A DNA stretch of 9,400 nucleotides from Thermoplasmata archaeon (GTDB lineage Archaea; Thermoplasmatota; Thermoplasmata; Thermoplasmatales; Thermoplasmataceae): positions 1 to 9,400 of the forward strand of contig JAJZWN010000052.1 of assembly GCA_021846695.1 (NCBI GenBank). The letters are read 5' to 3'. Within the stretch, counting starts at the first letter, position 1, and each line of letters starts with the position of its first letter. Below the pieces are notes generated by a model. The model was not told the origin of the DNA. It did no database searches and saw only the letters and a list, made by a program, of their open reading frames with translations. The translations under genes were made by a program, and so were the position numbers. Of the stretch, positions 341-9,146 are shown in pieces.

Positions 341-1372
341 ATGCAGTCGAAAACGGTTTTGTTTATAGTTAGAAGGGGCATAAATGCCTTAATCACCGTT
401 GTAATTCTTATTGTATTCTTGTTTTCTCTCATTCATATCATTGCTCCATCTCCCGCAGCTATGGCGCGTATTTATGCTGGAAGTCCACATGTACCTCCTG
501 CAGAACTTCTTACTATTGAGAAAACTTACGGGCTAAATAAACCCATATATGAACAAATGATTATTTATATGGTTGCCATCTTCCACGGAAACCTTGGGGT
601 GGATCCGACATACAAAGTGCCCGAAATATCCCTAATAGCTAAGTTTCTGCCAAGAACTCTTGAACTAGTTATACCTGCCATAATACTTTCCGTTGCAATT
701 GGAATTTTTACTGGTGCTCTTGCGGCTTCAAAAAGAAGAAAACCTACAGACCATGTTGTAAAGGGCGTTTATCTCGCTACTTGGGCATCTCCCCCATTTT
801 TAGTTGCTGCGATGCTACAGCTATTTATTGGATACGACTTAGGACTTCTTCCAGCGGTACACATGGTTAACCCATTGCTCAATACACCACAAAATTATAC
901 TTCATTTCCTATCTTAAACTCTATTATTGCACGTGATTGGCCTTATTTTATAAGTCTCATTCATCACATGATCCTTCCAGTTATTGCACTTTCTCTGATC
1001 AGTTTTGGAATCGTTACAAGGCTCACCAGGTCATCTATGTTAGATATAATGGAAACTGATTATTTTAGATTAAGCATCATGAAAGGGGTCCCGAGAAAAA
1101 AAGCAATATATAGTGTTGCTCTAAGAAATGCCTCGATTCCTTTAATAACACTGATTGCTCTATTGTTTGCCTATTCCGTAGCAGGTGCAGTTATAATTGA
1201 AGATATATTTGACTATCATGGAATGGGGTGGTTCATTGTACACGCGATTTATACACTCGATTACATTGCCATACTTGATACAACCATTATAGTTGGATTA
1301 TCTGTAATTGCAGCAAATCTGATAGCAGATATACTTTATGGCGTACTCGATCCAAGGGTGAGATTAGAATGA
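341..1372 (+). CDS. dppB: Dipeptide/oligopeptide ABC transporter permease, DppB-like
   Basis: One of two membrane subunits forming the translocation channel of a peptide importer. Its 343 residues match the usual DppB/OppB length. Six hydrophobic segments are visible (about 8-34, 107-128, 146-166, 202-226, 264-290, 309-333). The stretch after helix 1, with 'TIEKTYGLNKPIYEQ', is the DppB pattern in which a short 'GLD.P...Qy' motif precedes the second membrane region. The cytoplasmic EAA-type loop that docks on the ATPases covers about 237-262 ('DYFRLSIMKGVPRKKAI'), followed by 'LRNASIPLIT' and the typical 'IIEDIFDYHGMGW'. The ending 'LYGVLDPRVRLE' is characteristic of the family. The gene opens a five-gene run; its stop overlaps the next start as ATGA. 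Family assignment is firm, but the transported peptide or other solute cannot be read from the sequence. Confidence 0.93.
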   Translation: MQSKTVLFIVRRGINALITVVILIVFLFSLIHIIAPSPAAMARIYAGSPHVPPAELLTIEKTYGLNKPIYEQMIIYMVAIFHGNLGVDPTYKVPEISLIAKFLPRTLELVIPAIILSVAIGIFTGALAASKRRKPTDHVVKGVYLATWASPPFLVAAMLQLFIGYDLGLLPAVHMVNPLLNTPQNYTSFPILNSIIARDWPYFISLIHHMILPVIALSLISFGIVTRLTRSSMLDIMETDYFRLSIMKGVPRKKAIYSVALRNASIPLITLIALLFAYSVAGAVIIEDIFDYHGMGWFIVHAIYTLDYIAILDTTIIVGLSVIAANLIADILYGVLDPRVRLE

Positions 1373-2301
1373 TTGAAAACGTGACTCATAAGCAGGAGGA
1401 AAAAAAGGATACGCAAGGGAAATTAAATTTTTATCTAAAGATGGTATATAAGGATAAAACTGGATTTGCCGGGATGATCATTGTCCTCATATTTTTCGGC
1501 TGGTCATTTATACAGGGTATGCTTGAAATCTTTTCCGGAATGTTTAGTGACCCTCATCTTGGAAGTATCCTTTTGCCCCACAATCCATTTAACTTTAACT
1601 ACCACATTTCAATGCAGGGGCCAAGTTCGACTTATCTACTTGGTACAAACGCCGAGGGTGAAGATATTCTTTCTAGACTTTTATACGCAGTTCCAAGGGA
1701 CGCTTTCATTGCAGTGTTGGTTGTTGCTTCCGCAATATTGATTGGAGCAGTTTTAGGCATTACGGCAGGATATATGGGAAAAATGACCGATGAAATTATA
1801 ATGAGGGTAACAGACGCATTTCTCGCAGTACCAGCCCTGATACTTGTCATAGCAATCAGTGTGGTGCTTAATGCAACTTATACCGGGGCAATAATAGGTT
1901 TGATGGTTGTCTGGTGGCCAATTTACACTAGATTCTTCAGGGGTCAAACCTTAAAGATTAAGAACTTGGATTTTGTACAGGCTTCTAAAATAAACAATGT
2001 TTCCAAAATAAGATTTTTTTTCAGGTACCTCTTCCTAAACGACACAGATCCAATTATAGCATATGCCGCACTGGATTTCGGCAACGTAATCTTAACCTAT
2101 TCTACACTGGCATTTCTAGGAATAGGTTTAACACCACCAATCCCGGAACTTGGTTCAATGGCAGCGGATGGTGTGGGCGCTCTTCCAACGGCATGGTGGT
2201 GGGCAATATTTCCAGGCCTCGCAATTCTGGTTATTGTTATCGGGTTTGTTTTATTAGGTGATAGACTTCAGGACATAATATCAAATAGGATCAATTATTA
2301 G
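1369..2301 (+). CDS. dppC: Dipeptide/oligopeptide ABC transporter permease, DppC-like
   Basis: Second channel subunit, pairing with the upstream DppB-like protein. Its 310 residues fit DppC/OppC. A charged N-terminal tail (1-30) leads into helix 1 (about 32-52). The hallmark 'LGTNAEGEDILSRLLYA' (91-107) corresponds to the DppC consensus LGTDxxGRDxxSRxxxG. Further helices lie at about 112-134, 147-167, 172-188, 228-252 and 275-297, and the protein ends with the typical 'LGDRLQDIISNRI'. The EAA loop is at about 201-225 ('DFVQASKINNVSKIRFF'); where most relatives have a glycine after EAA-x-x-x, this protein has Asn210. The ATG overlaps the dppB stop by four bases, implying coupled translation. 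The odd loop residue may reflect co-adaptation with the ATPases and does not argue against function. Confidence 0.93.
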   Translation: MIENVTHKQEEKKDTQGKLNFYLKMVYKDKTGFAGMIIVLIFFGWSFIQGMLEIFSGMFSDPHLGSILLPHNPFNFNYHISMQGPSSTYLLGTNAEGEDILSRLLYAVPRDAFIAVLVVASAILIGAVLGITAGYMGKMTDEIIMRVTDAFLAVPALILVIAISVVLNATYTGAIIGLMVVWWPIYTRFFRGQTLKIKNLDFVQASKINNVSKIRFFFRYLFLNDTDPIIAYAALDFGNVILTYSTLAFLGIGLTPPIPELGSMAADGVGALPTAWWWAIFPGLAILVIVIGFVLLGDRLQDIISNRINY

Positions 2302-2305
2302 GTGA
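2301..2305 (+). promoter_or_regulatory. Shine-Dalgarno of dppD
   Basis: GGTGA lies four bases before the ATG at 2310 and overlaps the last base of the dppC stop. It complements the 3' end of archaeal 16S rRNA and supports this start for an internal operon gene, in contrast to the leaderless first gene. Confidence 0.5.
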
Positions 2306-2309
2306 CGAA

Positions 2310-3275
2310 ATGCTGTTGACTATCAGAAATCTGAGTGTATTTTATAATACTGTAGTTGGTAAATTTAAGGTAATTGAAGACATGAATCTTGATTTGGAAG
2401 AAGGCGATATAATCTCACTTGTCGGTGAATCTGCCTCTGGGAAATCGACACTGGGGCAGGTTCTTACAAGGATGTTACCGGGCACTGGATCCGCCGAAGG
2501 TGAAGTTATTTTCGATGGCAAAGATGTTCTGAAAATATCTGAAAACAGAATGACAGAAATCAGAGGTACATCTATTTTCATGATTTTTCAAAATCCATTA
2601 AACAGTTTAAATCCAGTAAAAACAGTTGGTTTTCAGTTGATTGAAGCAGCAAGGATAAGAAGGGAAAGAGACCATTTAAGCACGGATGAAGCCGAAATGC
2701 GGAAAGAAGCAGAAGAATCTCTTATCAGTCTAAGACTTCCAGATGCAGATTCCATTATGAGAAGATATCCGCACGAGTTATCCGGGGGACAAGTCCAAAG
2801 AGTCGTTATATGCATGGCGTTGCTTCTTAAACCAAAAATTTTGATAGCAGATGAACCAACCACTGCCCTGGATGTTACAATACAGGCTCAGGTAATTAAC
2901 CTACTAAGAACGTTAAATAAAGAGATGAAAATGACCATAATTTTCATAACGCATGATATTGGACTAGCATATGTTCTTTCCAACAATCTAGTAGTCTTGT
3001 ACAGTGGAAGGATAATGGAATCGGGAAACACAGAAAGCATCATTAAGAAACCACTTCATCCATACACGTCAGGACTAATCGGTAGCATACCAAATTCTTC
3101 AAAGACTTCTGGAAAGCTTTTTTCAATCAAGGGGTCTCCGCCATCTTATCTATCATTACCAGATGGTTGTAAATTCAGCAACAGATGTCAGTTCGTGTTT
3201 GAAAGATGTATGCAAGAAGAACCCAAACTACTGGACGTTCAAGATAGAAAGGTTAAGTGTTGGTTATATGAGTGA
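2310..3275 (+). CDS. dppD: Peptide ABC transporter ATP-binding protein, DppD-like
   Basis: Cytoplasmic ATPase that drives the importer, expected to act as a heterodimer with the next gene's product. All nucleotide-binding elements are in order over 321 residues: Walker A GESASGKST (39-47), Q-loop Gln94 in 'FQNPLNSLNP', signature LSGGQ (157-161), Walker B 'ILIADEP' with catalytic Glu182, D-loop 'TALD', and switch His215. The C-terminal oligo/dipeptide extension carries four cysteines (287, 293, 300, 317) in 'CKFSNRCQFVFERC'. This motif is known in related DppD proteins to hold an iron-sulfur cluster. Walker A has Ala42 where Gly is usual, a tolerated variant. The gene begins eight bases after dppC and overlaps dppF by eight bases. 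D versus F is assigned by order and by its shorter N-terminus. Confidence 0.93.
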   Translation: MLLTIRNLSVFYNTVVGKFKVIEDMNLDLEEGDIISLVGESASGKSTLGQVLTRMLPGTGSAEGEVIFDGKDVLKISENRMTEIRGTSIFMIFQNPLNSLNPVKTVGFQLIEAARIRRERDHLSTDEAEMRKEAEESLISLRLPDADSIMRRYPHELSGGQVQRVVICMALLLKPKILIADEPTTALDVTIQAQVINLLRTLNKEMKMTIIFITHDIGLAYVLSNNLVVLYSGRIMESGNTESIIKKPLHPYTSGLIGSIPNSSKTSGKLFSIKGSPPSYLSLPDGCKFSNRCQFVFERCMQEEPKLLDVQDRKVKCWLYE

Positions 3276-4209
3276 AATATACAGATTTGAAGATGTAAGG
3301 AAATACTATCTGTCGCAGAAAAGAGGACTATTAGAAATTGCCATGAGGACCAAACCAATCTATGTTAAGGCACTTGATAACGTAAGTTTCACACTGACAT
3401 CGAATCAGGTGCTGGCCGTGGTTGGTGAGAGCGGTTCTGGAAAGACTACCATGGGAAAAATCATGGTAACTTTAGAAAAACCAACTTCGGGTAAGGTATT
3501 TTTTAGAGGGGAAGAGGTAAATAAAAAGAATACGGCAGATATAAGGGAAAATATAGACATGGTTTTTCAAAATCCCTCAACGTCATTGAATCCAAGAATG
3601 AAAATCAAGCATATAATATCAGAATCCTTGAAAAATTTTGACGAGGAAAAGGTACAGGACATAATGCAGCAGGTCGGATTGCCCTATAATGAACTTAAGG
3701 ATAAACAACCAAGGGAATTGTCGGGTGGTCAGGTACAGAGGGTAGCAATATCTAAAGCGATAATCAAGAAACCGGAGCTCATCGTTCTGGACGAGCCCAC
3801 TTCTGCGCTGGACGAATCTATTCAGGCACAGATATTGAATTTACTCGTTGACCTACAGAAGCAGTTCAAACTTACATACGTATTTATCACACACAATATC
3901 TACGTTGCGAAATATATTGCTGATTTTATAGTTGTTTTATATGCTGGCAAGATTATTGAATATGGAAAAAATGAAGAGGTGTTGGAAAAGCCACTGCATC
4001 CATACACTCAGCTTCTTATTACTTCAATACCCACAACAAATTCCAAGGAACTCAAGCCTCCCGTGGGAGATGTACCAAGCCTGATTAACAGGCCAGAAGG
4101 ATGTAGTTTTCATCCAAGATGCCCATTTGCAATGGAAAGATGCAAAACTCAAGAACCTCCTCTTAGGAATCATGGAAATTACCTGGTAGCTTGCTGGTTG
4201 TATGAATAA
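3268..4209 (+). CDS. dppF: Peptide ABC transporter ATP-binding protein, DppF-like
   Basis: Partner ATPase of the DppD-like protein, 313 residues from the ATG at 3268. An upstream in-frame codon at 3163 would add 35 residues inside dppD with no family similarity, so the later start is preferred: it begins directly with the family pattern 'MSEIYRFEDVRKYY', including the insertion before 'VKALDNVSF' typical of DppF/OppF. Motifs: Walker A GESGSGKTT (53-61), Gln101, LSGGQ (151-155), Walker B 'LIVLDEP' with Glu176, switch His209. The C-terminal four-cysteine motif (279, 285, 292, 309) is present here as well. The start overlaps the dppD stop by eight bases (ATGAGTGA), and the stop overlaps the next gene in the same way (ATGAATAA). 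Confidence 0.93.
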   Translation: MSEIYRFEDVRKYYLSQKRGLLEIAMRTKPIYVKALDNVSFTLTSNQVLAVVGESGSGKTTMGKIMVTLEKPTSGKVFFRGEEVNKKNTADIRENIDMVFQNPSTSLNPRMKIKHIISESLKNFDEEKVQDIMQQVGLPYNELKDKQPRELSGGQVQRVAISKAIIKKPELIVLDEPTSALDESIQAQILNLLVDLQKQFKLTYVFITHNIYVAKYIADFIVVLYAGKIIEYGKNEEVLEKPLHPYTQLLITSIPTTNSKELKPPVGDVPSLINRPEGCSFHPRCPFAMERCKTQEPPLRNHGNYLVACWLYE

Positions 4210-4645
4210 AACCATCAAGAAGACTATTGTTAAAGGTACAATACTTTTAATGGCGTTCTCCCTTTTCCTCGAAATTAGACCAGGTAAAATAATTGATTAC
4301 TTAATCTTCGTATTTGTCTATTATCTACTTCTAATTATATATATTGCACTCAAGAGCTCATACAGATTTAGTATATCTCAAGACGGTCTTCACGCCGATT
4401 TGAAATTTCGTAAGATCAATCTGAAGTATGAAGGAATAATTGATGTGTTCGAGAACAGTGGTTTCCTGCAACGTAAATTCAATCTATCAACAGTATATGT
4501 CATACACAAAGGAGGAAATATAGTAATTAAAGACGTGGAGAATGGAAAAGAGATAGAGCAAAAGATCCGGCAAAAAATGGGCTACTCCAAGGAATCTGAA
4601 GTTAAAGGAGGAACAGTTAAAGATGGGCTGTCCAAAAATTTATGA
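4202..4645 (+). CDS. Two-helix membrane protein with bacterial-PH-like (DUF304/YdbS-type) domain
   Basis: A 147-residue protein. Two hydrophobic helices (about 10-24 and 31-50) form a hairpin. A soluble domain (about 53-126) follows, reading 'YRFSISQDGLHADLKFRK...YEGIIDVFENSGFLQRKFNLSTVYVIHKGGNIVIKDV', with a final basic tail. The alternation of short strands, the 'I..V......L.R.FNL..V.V' core and the closing amphipathic helix match the bacterial PH-like domains found after membrane hairpins in YdbS-type proteins, whose roles are mostly unknown. Its ATG lies inside the last codons of dppF (8-base overlap), so it is very probably co-translated with the transporter. Its stop overlaps the convergent coiled-coil gene by six bases. 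Domain call is moderately sure; function is unknown. Confidence 0.7.
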   Translation: MNKTIKKTIVKGTILLMAFSLFLEIRPGKIIDYLIFVFVYYLLLIIYIALKSSYRFSISQDGLHADLKFRKINLKYEGIIDVFENSGFLQRKFNLSTVYVIHKGGNIVIKDVENGKEIEQKIRQKMGYSKESEVKGGTVKDGLSKNL

Positions 4646-4963
4646 TTTCTTAAGGTATTTATCAAACATTACTTCAAAATTTTCCGTTATATCGACAGGT
4701 ATTTCAGCCTTATCACCAATGTTTAGTATTGATATTAAACCGGATAACCTCATAATCTCGCGTCTAACTGAATCTTGAAGCTCTATAAGTTCCATACTCA
4801 AACCGGCATTTTCAGATCTAAGCTGGAGAATACTCATTATCAAACTCATTTTTTCGGATTTTCGATTTTCTCGTATATTGAGGCCTGCATCTTTAAAATC
4901 GTATCCAGGTCCATTTTTATCGACAGTATCTGATTCCTTTTTAGTTCTATCTCTTTCTTCCAT
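4640..4963 (-). CDS. Coiled-coil protein, downstream part (probably frameshifted continuation of the 5031 gene)
   Basis: An open frame of 107 codons is present, but its first 38 residues look low in coiled-coil character and share DNA with the better coiled coil of the overlapping frame that begins at 5031. From Met39 onward ('MSLIMSILQLRSENAGLSMEL...') it is a regular heptad-like helix (to about residue 80). A short globular end, 'IGDKAEIPVDITENFEVMFDKYLKKS', follows. A single added A in the run of six (plus strand T, 4849-4854) would join this part to the upstream frame and give one protein of about 130 residues. Read literally, it is a separate 107-residue ORF. No family is recognised. It lies tail-to-tail with the PH-like gene. 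Confidence 0.5.
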   Translation of the reverse strand: MEERDRTKKESDTVDKNGPGYDFKDAGLNIRENRKSEKMSLIMSILQLRSENAGLSMELIELQDSVRREIMRLSGLISILNIGDKAEIPVDITENFEVMFDKYLKKS

Positions 4964-5031: not shown

Positions 5032-5132
5032 GTTAACTGTATCAGATACATTTACTAAATCATTATGGAAATCTGAGTATAGTATAACGATGGAATGGTT
5101 ATCCTCCCCTCATTCTGCCCTCCTTGATGTGC

Positions 5133-5146
5133 GAAACATTCTTATA
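5133..5146 (+). promoter_or_regulatory. Leaderless promoter of the substrate-binding protein gene
   Basis: GAAACATTCTTATA comprises a purine/A-rich BRE-like part followed by TTATA. The TATA centre is about 25 bases before the ATG at 5169, so transcription should begin at or next to that codon. This decides the start: an upstream in-frame ATG at 5124 lies before the promoter and would precede the signal anchor with an unrelated 15-residue peptide. Confidence 0.6.
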
Positions 5147-5168
5147 CCAATATTTGTCTTTACGTACG

Positions 5169-7235
5169 ATGAAAAGTTCACAAAAAATAATTGTGGTTGT
5201 CGTCGCCCTCGTTTTAATTGGCGTTGGTGGGTTCTATGCCTATAAAGCTACTCGCCCGTCAACCAATTTGCCAGCTATGAATCTGACTACTCTGTCACCG
5301 GTTAATGCATTAACTCAGGAACAGCTGTCATCGCTTGCAACCAACTTTAAAGCTATAGGCTTGCCTATATCTGTAAAGGCCGTAACCCCATCTGTAACTG
5401 ACGGATGGAACACGCCAAACGGTACACCAAGAATGGTAGACCTGGGTTGGTTTCCCGATTGGCCCGACCCTGTTGCACAGCAGTTAATGGCAGTGAGTGA
5501 TATACAATACGGAGGACTATCTGGTGATCTCCCATGGTTCGATAATTCAACACTACAGAAAATGTACCAAACTTTGGAATTCAACACAAACCAGACACAG
5601 CAGATCCAAAATGTCTCTCAGGCTTACAGCATAATATATCACCAGGCTCCGTGGATCTGGCTACCAAACCCTGATACTTACTTCTTTGTACAACCGTACG
5701 TAAACAACTTCACATACAACCCATATCAGGCATATTACTACAATATGATGTCATACAATACGTCAGCAGTAAATGGATTAAAGGCTCCTGCAAACAATAC
5801 CCTAACTGACTCTGCGCAACTTGCCGCACCTGATGCACTCGATCCTGCGACCGGCTTTTACACTCAGGATGGACCTCTATTCAGTGCCATATATCAACAG
5901 TTAGTGGAGTTCGATGGTTCAAATATAACAAAGGTAGTTCCTGTTCTGGCAAACAATACAGATACCAACATAACAAATATAACTACGAATTACCAGAACT
6001 ATACGTTTGATCTGAGGCACAATGTTAATTTCAGCAACGGTTTGAGTTTCAATGCAACATCTGTGTGGTTCTCCCTATACAGGACTATACTGATGGGTCA
6101 GGGACCCGGTGTGGCAAACTATATCGGTTATCTCTTTAATGCAACACAGTATGGCAACACTGGACTGGCATTGCCCTTCGGAATTGAGCATGCATTGCAA
6201 GCCGCTGGATACGGAAATTACCATATAGGGTCCAATTCTACCCAAAATGCACAGGTTGCTGCTAGCGATCTGTCAAACATACTTTCTAACTTCACCTACA
6301 ACACGACAGATATGAAGGTTATGGAGTACAAAAATCAGGCAGTTAGCGTTAATTCCACTAGTCATTATAAGGTAAATGTAAACCTTCTATCGCCTTATAA
6401 ATTCTTCCTGACGGATCTGTCTGCATGGTGGGGTGCAGTGGTTGCTCCGAACTATGTTGATCAACATGGCGGAGTTCAGGCAAACGCAGTAAACTCCTAT
6501 GCAAACACACACGGGATTCCAGGAACTGGACCATATTATATGAAAACTATCGGTTCAAGCATGTCTACAATAACACTTAAAAATACTACTAACTATTGGG
6601 GTGCCTCTGCTAAGGCAGTACCAGCTGTTGCAGAACAGGCACATATACATAACATCGTTATCGATTACACAAGTTCACACAGTTCAAGAGTAAGTGGGTT
6701 CCTTCACAACAGTTATCAAATATCGTATGTAAGCTCGTCGTATATTGGACAAATCGCCGGGGCTTCTCCATTCAAGGGATTACCATTGAATACGTCATTC
6801 AAAAACTTTGGTGCTGAACCAGGTGTATTCTACATCTCTTTAAACACCCAGGTATTCCCTACTAACATCACGGATTTCAGGCTTGCTTTGGAATACGCTA
6901 CAAACTACTCAGCATTAATGAGCCCGTTTATATACAATGGTACACCACTTGCAGTTCAATCACTAGGACCAATATCGCCGGTTTTCAAGAACTACTATAA
7001 TCCCGGACATCTTCCGATGTACAATTATAATATATCGAAGGCTATCTATTACATGAATCTCGCAGGTAAACAGGGACATTTCTTTGTGACATTGCCAAAT
7101 GGAACGAAAATTGGAGATGTTGGGGGCAGTTCTGGTTCTTCCCTCTTTAATATGGTTCCACATTTAACATTTAATGTATTGGCACTGGAAAGGAATTTGG
7201 AAACTGGAGTCGGAAAATTCTCCACATTTTTCTAA
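5169..7235 (+). CDS. Membrane-anchored peptide-binding protein (SBP_bac_5 family) with apparently circularly permuted domain order
   Basis: Extracellular solute receptor, presumably delivering peptides to the DppBCDF importer upstream. It has 688 residues. Residues 1-5 are charged/polar, 6-26 a single hydrophobic anchor, then a short linker. Residues about 46-196 look like the usual C-terminal end of the family: helix 'LTQEQLSSLATNFKAIGLPI', then WFPDWPDP (94-101), 'YSIIYHQAPWIWLP' and 'PYVNNFTYNP'. Residues about 212-688 look like the usual beginning and middle: 'PDALDPATGF', 'IYQQLVEFDG', 'YTFDLRHNVNFSNGLSFNATSVWFS', 'GTGPYYMKT', 'NTTNYWG', 'FYISLNTQVFP', 'ISKAIYYMNLAG', 'TLPNGTKIGD'. The protein then stops at 'LTFNVLAL...KFSTFF', where the family normally continues into the segment found here at the front. 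Roughly 25 N-x-S/T sequons suggest heavy glycosylation. Family is firm; permutation is a strong reading, function as a working receptor an inference. Confidence 0.9.
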   Translation: MKSSQKIIVVVVALVLIGVGGFYAYKATRPSTNLPAMNLTTLSPVNALTQEQLSSLATNFKAIGLPISVKAVTPSVTDGWNTPNGTPRMVDLGWFPDWPDPVAQQLMAVSDIQYGGLSGDLPWFDNSTLQKMYQTLEFNTNQTQQIQNVSQAYSIIYHQAPWIWLPNPDTYFFVQPYVNNFTYNPYQAYYYNMMSYNTSAVNGLKAPANNTLTDSAQLAAPDALDPATGFYTQDGPLFSAIYQQLVEFDGSNITKVVPVLANNTDTNITNITTNYQNYTFDLRHNVNFSNGLSFNATSVWFSLYRTILMGQGPGVANYIGYLFNATQYGNTGLALPFGIEHALQAAGYGNYHIGSNSTQNAQVAASDLSNILSNFTYNTTDMKVMEYKNQAVSVNSTSHYKVNVNLLSPYKFFLTDLSAWWGAVVAPNYVDQHGGVQANAVNSYANTHGIPGTGPYYMKTIGSSMSTITLKNTTNYWGASAKAVPAVAEQAHIHNIVIDYTSSHSSRVSGFLHNSYQISYVSSSYIGQIAGASPFKGLPLNTSFKNFGAEPGVFYISLNTQVFPTNITDFRLALEYATNYSALMSPFIYNGTPLAVQSLGPISPVFKNYYNPGHLPMYNYNISKAIYYMNLAGKQGHFFVTLPNGTKIGDVGGSSGSSLFNMVPHLTFNVLALERNLETGVGKFSTFF

Positions 7236-8267: not shown

Positions 8268-9146
8268 ATGCTCTTCAAACCTGTAATAATACCCATGTCC
8301 AAGTGGTCCATTACAGGGACAGTATATATAAACAGAAATAACATAAATCTCGCGACAGTACTCATTTTCTCCGCAAATAAGTGCGACATAGCTTCCAATG
8401 GTGTTGTTTTCTATGCCTCGTTAGCTCCAGATGAGGTCATAACAGCGCTGAACAACCTCGCTTCATCCACCAGCAACATGGCGTTTCCACATGGTTCAGA
8501 CATCTACACAGGTGCAGGTTACTTTGAAGAGACATTCCCCAATGCAACAGGTGCCATATCCGGAATCTATGAAAATAATGCAATGCTCATTCAGTTATAT
8601 TATGATAATATAACATTCAAAATAGCCGTTAAGGGAAGCAATGGGCTTTCATATGGAATACCTGTTTCAAACACTTCAGTTGTTTATTTCATACCACATC
8701 ACATAAACGAAACTTCTGAAATGACACTGATAATGTTCTATGTTGGTGTTCAGTACTATCTTGTACACCATCAACCACTGTACAGGAATGTGAATGAGGG
8801 AACTCTGGGAATCAGCGCTTCTGAAAATGCTGAGACATATGGAAACATAGCAGGAGGAAGTTTTGTCCCATATATTGTATGTTGCCATCCGGGTGATTGT
8901 GCCTGTTCTGGATCCGGAGATCAATCCTGGAGTGGATCTTCTTGTAAATGGTATAATTATGATTCCTACAATGGTGAACAGTCTGATACTTTCCAGATTT
9001 CTGCCACAATTTGCTACGACAGCAGCGGCGTCATAACTGGAGTCCTAAATACTCAAACATATGTTCAGGAGCTTACCGAAGGACCATGCTGTGACTTGGA
9101 GGGTGCAAATGGACAGGTATCGCTTAATGTTCCGCAATTAAGTTAG
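8268..9146 (+). CDS. Cysteine-rich protein of unknown function, probably exported
   Basis: No family is recognised in these 292 residues. Residues 1-200 look like a beta-rich globular region with N-x-S/T sequons at 92, 114, 135 and 147. The C-terminal 90 residues hold eight cysteines (205, 206, 211, 213, 226, 249, 274, 275) in CC-x4-C-x-C, single and CC arrangements, rich in Gly, Ser and Tyr; one more cysteine is at 39. Sequons and even-numbered clustered cysteines suggest a disulfide-bonded extracellular domain. Yet the N-terminus 'MLFKPVIIPMSKWSITG' is no standard signal peptide, and an in-frame TGA at 8256 prevents extension upstream. Translation runs into an anchored protein 10 bases later with a strong ribosome site, so the pair is an operon. 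Metal binding by the cysteines is an alternative. Confidence 0.75.
   Translation: MLFKPVIIPMSKWSITGTVYINRNNINLATVLIFSANKCDIASNGVVFYASLAPDEVITALNNLASSTSNMAFPHGSDIYTGAGYFEETFPNATGAISGIYENNAMLIQLYYDNITFKIAVKGSNGLSYGIPVSNTSVVYFIPHHINETSEMTLIMFYVGVQYYLVHHQPLYRNVNEGTLGISASENAETYGNIAGGSFVPYIVCCHPGDCACSGSGDQSWSGSSCKWYNYDSYNGEQSDTFQISATICYDSSGVITGVLNTQTYVQELTEGPCCDLEGANGQVSLNVPQLS

Follow-up and report, generated by a model that had tools for sequence, protein, structure and literature searches.

Engineers often rearrange binding proteins into sensors, and the question arises whether nature has done the same with the receptors of peptide importers. This question is raised by a 9,400-nucleotide stretch of DNA from a Thermoplasmata archaeon of the family Thermoplasmataceae (contig JAJZWN010000052.1, assembly GCA_021846695.1; hereafter the window), in which the gene at 5169..7235 on the forward strand encodes an SBP_bac_5 receptor whose two sequence blocks stand in the reverse of the usual, canonical order. 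Here we denote as N-block and C-block the parts that come first and last in canonical proteins, and as leader the N-terminal segment that precedes them. With a probability of roughly 0.9, we consider this protein to be a natural circular permutant, serving a peptide importer of the Opp/Dpp type as a receptor tethered to the membrane.

Block order of the receptor

The gene was listed as an open reading frame (ORF) of 703 residues from a TTG at 5124 to 7235; an ATG at 5169 in the same frame yields a protein of 688 residues, and corresponds to the start of P0001, a protein 96% identical to it. The SBP_bac_5 profile (PF00496) matches the receptor in two stretches, with 119.6 bits against a curated cut-off of 32.4 and an E-value of 2.2e-34. 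Comparison with a profile of canonical relatives makes evident how these stretches are arranged: residues 31–194 correspond to profile positions 433–596 (222.9 bits) and residues 210–655 to positions 2–435 (621.7 bits), the two pieces jointly covering positions 2–596 of 596 with an overlap of three. The same is observed by BLASTP against the canonical protein P0008 of Acidianus brierleyi, in which residues 204–659 of the receptor align with 49–487 at 57% identity and residues 32–194 with 485–647 at 60%, well in excess of chance similarity. The protein is then composed of an N-terminal hydrophobic helix (residues 3–27; 5175..5249), the C-block now at the front (31–194; 5259..5750), a 15-residue linker in the gap between the two profile matches (195–209; 5751..5795), the N-block (210–655; 5796..7133) and an extra C-terminal tail beyond the canonical profile (656–688; 7134..7232), all on the forward strand. 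The linker runs from the old C-terminus into the old N-terminus, the new ends are found at one site and the core is unduplicated. The N-terminal helix is probably a membrane anchor, as suggested by the hydropathy maximum of the protein, a 19-residue segment starting at residue 7 with a value of 2.57, and by the predicted structure, which has a helix over residues 3–27.

The original prediction, made from the DNA letters, had proposed the order anchor, C-block, N-block with every core block kept, and this is borne out; the motifs it cited are all present in the 688-residue protein, and its blocks stand, their limits (46–196, and from about 214) being refined to those given above. It had also suggested that the rotated sequence be scored against the native one, and here the outcome depends on the tail. 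Once leader and tail are removed, the rotated receptor gives a single unbroken match to profile positions 2–596 with 859.6 bits, whereas with the tail retained the match stays in two pieces, because the tail then intervenes between them. Likewise, rotation of the Thermoplasma acidophilum protein P0018 with its tail retained changes the score from 550.0 to 550.3 bits and leaves the pieces unmerged. Permuted proteins from the more distant groups described below improve upon rotation even with their tails retained: P0123 goes from 615 to 903 bits and, against a canonical profile from Methanomassiliicoccales, P0241 from 251 to 361, P0266 from 146 to 258 and P0341 from 138 to 227. The one canonical control, P0008, scores 993.2 bits before and after rotation, with no gain. 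Since profile positions 433–596 come ahead of 2–435, the receptor departs from the usual N-to-C block order and is filed as a permuted variant rather than as a standard SBP_bac_5 member; no separate permuted family was returned by Pfam and NCBIfam scans. The swapped block order is thereby confirmed, and the reading as a circular permutation is supported by these sequence comparisons.

Distribution within the Thermoplasmataceae

A search of Thermoplasmata genomes for the same order, as the original prediction had suggested, did find it. Among 400 sampled genomes of the class, 183 contain a match, and matches that span the junction at 44% identity or more occur in at least seven genomes from five genera of the family to which the window belongs (G000, G082, G128, G202, G264, G309 and G339). 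Other genomes of that family carry the canonical form and one, G309, has both orders, permuted in L083 and canonical in L084. Considering the best 120 of 221 relatives of the window receptor, 33 are permuted and 87 canonical; the nearest canonical ones are substrate-binding proteins of ATP-binding cassette (ABC) transporters from Sulfolobales and Thermoplasmatales (P0008, L009). All trees were computed from hand-picked subsets, of 131 rows for the separate block trees, 60 (thinned) for the window group, and 46 and 23 in the analysis that included the joint-clade test. On the 60-row tree a single gain would be enough to account for the window group, with a support of 77/86.

In assembly G000 the gene is split over contigs C25 and C108, which overlap by 127 bases at window positions 5875–6001. 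At 14 of 2332 bases contig C25 and the window disagree, possibly owing to strain variation.

Recurrent permutation in related archaea

Distant junction-spanning matches led to further proteins of the same order (L071–L076), of which L072–L076 group with Methanomassiliicoccales proteins, according to the names given by the source. Among the best 120 of 720 relatives of these proteins, 53 are permuted and 67 canonical. A search of 147 genomes of this order gave matches in 45, with a permuted and colinear match in 10 (G407, G408, G379, G038, G404, G192, G391, G172, G200 and G078, the last ending at a contig edge). The two forms can be closely related, the permuted P0123 and the canonical P0133 sharing 60% identity in the leader, 75% in the C-block and 65% in the N-block. 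In a tree of 52 Methanomassiliicoccales proteins, from which the two L071 rows of the original 54 were excluded as belonging elsewhere, the best topology requires three changes of order, two of which are forced by well-supported branches; two canonical clades are nested inside the permuted set, and none of 200 bootstrap trees is satisfied by a single change. In agreement, approximately unbiased (AU) tests, in which the L071 rows were retained among the remaining sequences, reject keeping the 27 permuted proteins together (p-AU 2.1e-5) as well as the 25 canonical ones (p-AU 2.9e-9). The counts alone are compatible both with one gain followed by two reversals and with several gains. A joint clade of window-type and Methanomassiliicoccales permuted proteins is also rejected (p-AU 1.3e-84, 46 rows), and on these trees the two groups are taken to have been permuted separately.

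An additional case comes from an Aciduliprofundum-like genome (L071, G158), whose permuted protein P0241 is 87–88% identical in both blocks to the canonical P0242 and has nearly the same leader, so that its permutation is judged to be recent. Among the best 120 of the 3378 relatives of P0241, P0266 and P0341 are the only other proteins colinear with it. The cut site of P0266 is a different one, lying some 75 residues closer to the start of the canonical sequence, and the row nearest to this protein is canonical (P0257, 73%); P0341 has the same cut site as P0266, to which it is 42% identical, and an unsure tree position. Each of these two proteins has been seen on a single contig. Their cut precedes a DPAVRKAIAY-like helix, and their N-terminal cysteine is presumably part of a lipobox-like motif. 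P0123, the Methanomassiliicoccales proteins of L158–L160 and P0241 resemble the window receptor in having the leader–C–N order and a corresponding cut ahead of a domain III strand, but differ from it in their separate origin and in sharing only 23–28% identity with it. Taken together, the order swap is conserved and recurrent, with several separate origins in related archaea as far as the phylogenies indicate. A further reading, which we put forward tentatively and regard as possible rather than probable, is that block order may be an evolutionary switch in Thermoplasmatota, with repeated re-cutting at two or more sites, possible reversion, and retention of the leader and usually of the operon position.

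Variations of a different kind were observed among the canonical proteins. Several Methanomassiliicoccales relatives of about 790–880 residues (among them P0199, P0205, P0213, P0220 and P0236) have PF00801 and PF18911, which we take to be PKD-like domains, ahead of the receptor. In G446 (L161) a canonical receptor across two frames runs on in the same frame into a very long, repetitive C-terminal extension, the frame measuring 1177 residues up to the point where the stretch ends; the idea that this gene runs into a second N-block was dropped, as the long stretch after the receptor is matched by neither block profile.

The C-terminal tail

According to the original prediction, the window protein ends where the displaced block would continue; the N-block does end there, but a tail of about 33 residues follows. 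Such tails are general: among the relatives considered above, 28–38 residues follow the N-block match in 33/33 permuted proteins of the window group, and 15–50 residues in 50 of the 53 from Methanomassiliicoccales. We have rejected the possibility that the tail is the leftover start of a C-block, as p<0.05 against shuffled sequences was reached by 1/33 window-group and 1/50 Methanomassiliicoccales tails, as expected by chance; P0203, P0210 and P0230, with tails outside the 15–50 range, were left out of this test. The idea of an amphipathic helix came to nothing: the hydrophobic moments of nine hand-picked tails gave p values of 0.05 (P0123), 0.07 (P0001) and at least 0.11 for the others. Both permuted groups, despite their separate origins, commonly end in a late alanine followed by arginine or lysine: the pattern A-x(0-2)-[RK] is found near the last residues in 24/33 window-group and 40/53 Methanomassiliicoccales permuted proteins, against 9/87 and 16/67 of the respective canonical ones, counts which are not a test, the pattern having been chosen post hoc and the rows being related.

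Operon context and function

The receptor gene lies on the same strand as an importer operon and about 520 bases past its end. The operon comprises genes for an OppB-like permease (341..1372; PF00528, 3.5e-37), an OppC-like permease (1369..2301; PF00528, 5.4e-26), an OppD-like ATPase (2310..3275) and an OppF-like ATPase (3268..4209), both with PF00005 and PF08352, followed by that of a small protein that matches bPH_2 weakly (4202..4645; PF03703, 0.0024, below cut-off), all on the forward strand. The companions expected of an importer receptor, two BPD_transp_1 proteins and two oligo_HPY ATPases, are found at 341–4209. The same importer, with permeases and ATPases 56–68% identical, adjoins the receptor in five of nine window-type permuted stretches (L077, L079, L082, L085 and L090). 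As for the five canonical stretches L084 and L086–L089, L087 alone has two tandem canonical receptors beside an orthologous operon, and in a sister lineage this importer is accompanied by canonical receptors.

In Methanomassiliicoccales, canonical (L155–L157) and permuted (L158–L160) receptors are all encoded immediately upstream of permB-permC-atpD, and atpF follows these genes except in L158, where the contig ends. The canonical Aciduliprofundum-type receptors of L151 and L152 have the same position, whereas the gene of the permuted P0241 is set apart and transcribed divergently from that of another receptor, which comes with permease and ATPase genes of its own. The same opp operon position can be filled by receptors of either order. 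We conclude from gene context that the permuted proteins have the function of the canonical ones, as putative peptide receptors; the window receptor is most likely a working one, with its tether moved to the other lobe.

Other features of the neighbourhood were noted. Proteins similar to that of 4202..4645 (38–44% identical) are encoded beside opp ATPase genes in six loci (L077, L079, L082, L085, L087 and L090). An ORF of 107 residues on the reverse strand (4640–4963) has no Pfam match, and a relative 35–37% identical over residues 45–106 is found between receptor and permease genes in L077 (9964–10149) and L085. The ORF at 8268–9146 (292 residues) has no Pfam match above cut-off and contains a cysteine-rich stretch in its second half, and from 9157 another reading frame starts with an N-terminal hydrophobic stretch and runs off the window.

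Structural model, origin and alternative explanations

The receptor matches by sequence chains of the DppA/NikA/SapA kind, and its N-block matches OppA by fold; we take these to be cluster C proteins. The permuted chain would still fold into a bilobed receptor, anchored by its N-terminal helix. The new ends, cut at around OppA residue 360, fall within domain III of OppA, which we assume to span about residues 271–486; the old ends presumably lie together in one domain of OppA. Since the new ends are in domain III, the tether would now be on the lobe of this domain, having moved there from domain I; the binding cleft would remain intact and the way in which the receptor hangs over the transporter would be changed. 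Regarding its origin, such a gene may have arisen when a canonical gene was duplicated, in tandem or internally, and the first N-block (behind the leader) and the final C-block were then lost. The two canonical receptors of L087 (6901–12391), a direct tandem pair beside the opp operon, show that the starting material for such a route is present.

A number of observations weigh against the reading as a permuted importer receptor, or against parts of it. The structure model is middling (mean predicted local distance difference test score, pLDDT, 76.8), being weak at C-block residues 75–91 and 113–120 and below 50 in the tail (655–688). The best alignments of the structure aligners cover the N-block, the C-block being placed by sequence homology only, and Foldseek template modelling (TM) scores are low, at 0.24–0.39 by query length among the 50 matches listed. 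The operon is not seen in four of the nine window-type stretches within the bases examined: L078 has a distant ATPase piece only, and L080, L081 and L083 have no importer genes. Also, a single origin inside the window group is supported at the above 77/86 only, and in the C-block tree a canonical Thermoplasmatales clade is nested within the permuted set with weak support.

The original prediction had named a collapsed tandem pair of receptor genes as what could undo it. The contig break inside the gene in G000 and the existence of the L087 pair would be in keeping with such a collapse or with an assembly chimera, but the C-to-N junction (about 5750–5796) lies wholly inside one G000 contig, and colinear proteins are present in other assemblies: P0001, two permuted copies in G082, which we take to be T. 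acidophilum, on one contig of 1,564,906 bases, and a relative in Oxyplasma meridianum on a contig of 1,676,007 bases. On account of the junction within one contig and of the genomes on single long contigs, an assembly artefact is rejected for the group, and its probability is negligible. Decay of the gene into a receptor that no longer works, to which a variable and unmodelled tail might point, is very improbable in view of the many columns that are invariant in an alignment of 34 permuted sequences (as little as 43% identical to the window receptor), of the occurrence of the order in at least five genera of the window's family, and of the intact importer genes nearby.

It is conceivable, on the other hand, that the blocks have different histories, the C-half deriving from one paralogue and the N-half from another. 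Fusion of a tandem pair would naturally give such a chimera, and the C-block and N-block trees do differ in detail within the window group; nevertheless, both place the window permuted group with the same set of Sulfolobales and Thermoplasmatales canonical proteins and the permuted Methanomassiliicoccales proteins with canonical ones of their own group, and in P0241 both blocks resemble one and the same protein, which renders this explanation rather unlikely. Also unlikely, and slightly more so, is an obligate domain-swapped dimer, in which the N-block of a chain would be completed by the C-block of its partner: with the old ends of OppA sharing one domain, about 15 residues of linker would probably suffice for closure within a chain. 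Permuted order makes swapping sterically easy, and a domain-swapped dimer of a substrate-binding protein has a precedent in AliC, going by the title of structure 8qlh. A permuted, tethered receptor that closes within its own chain remains the reading we favour.

Relation to known receptors and significance

The window receptor is similar to the SBP_bac_5 or cluster C proteins DppA, OppA and NikA in having all their blocks, an N-terminal hydrophobic leader and opp neighbours, and differs from them in its swapped blocks, fused old ends and extra C-terminal tail. We have found no published permuted SBP_bac_5 member in the open-licence literature, where absence is weak evidence. The only published natural permuted import receptor found, and the nearest precedent, belongs to another receptor class: TpMglB-2 (Tp0684) of Treponema pallidum, a glucose receptor of type Ic or cluster Bc, which has relatives with the same topology and carries near its C-terminus three N-lobe strands whose EcMglB counterparts are close to the N-terminus (PMC4990184). 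Like the window receptor, it is described there as a natural permuted ABC importer receptor that is membrane-tethered in treponemes, and its authors consider that tethering may have driven the change in topology (PMC4990184). Unlike it, the window receptor is not a cluster B (type I) protein and has a different fold class, and its moved block is 60% identical to a canonical one, whereas the permuted part of TpMglB-2 is poorly conserved according to its authors (PMC4990184).

Relative to the literature found, a permuted SBP_bac_5 receptor is new, and its recurrence is unusual. In practical terms, filters based on profile coverage could mistake such receptors for partial or rearranged genes. With the natural pairs of opposite order, P0123/P0133 (65–75% identical by block) and P0241/P0242 (87–88%), one can test directly what relocating the tether does, how permuted genes arise and how well a two-lobed receptor tolerates being re-cut, and the permuted receptors of these archaea constitute a natural experiment on how receptors are tethered and dock.
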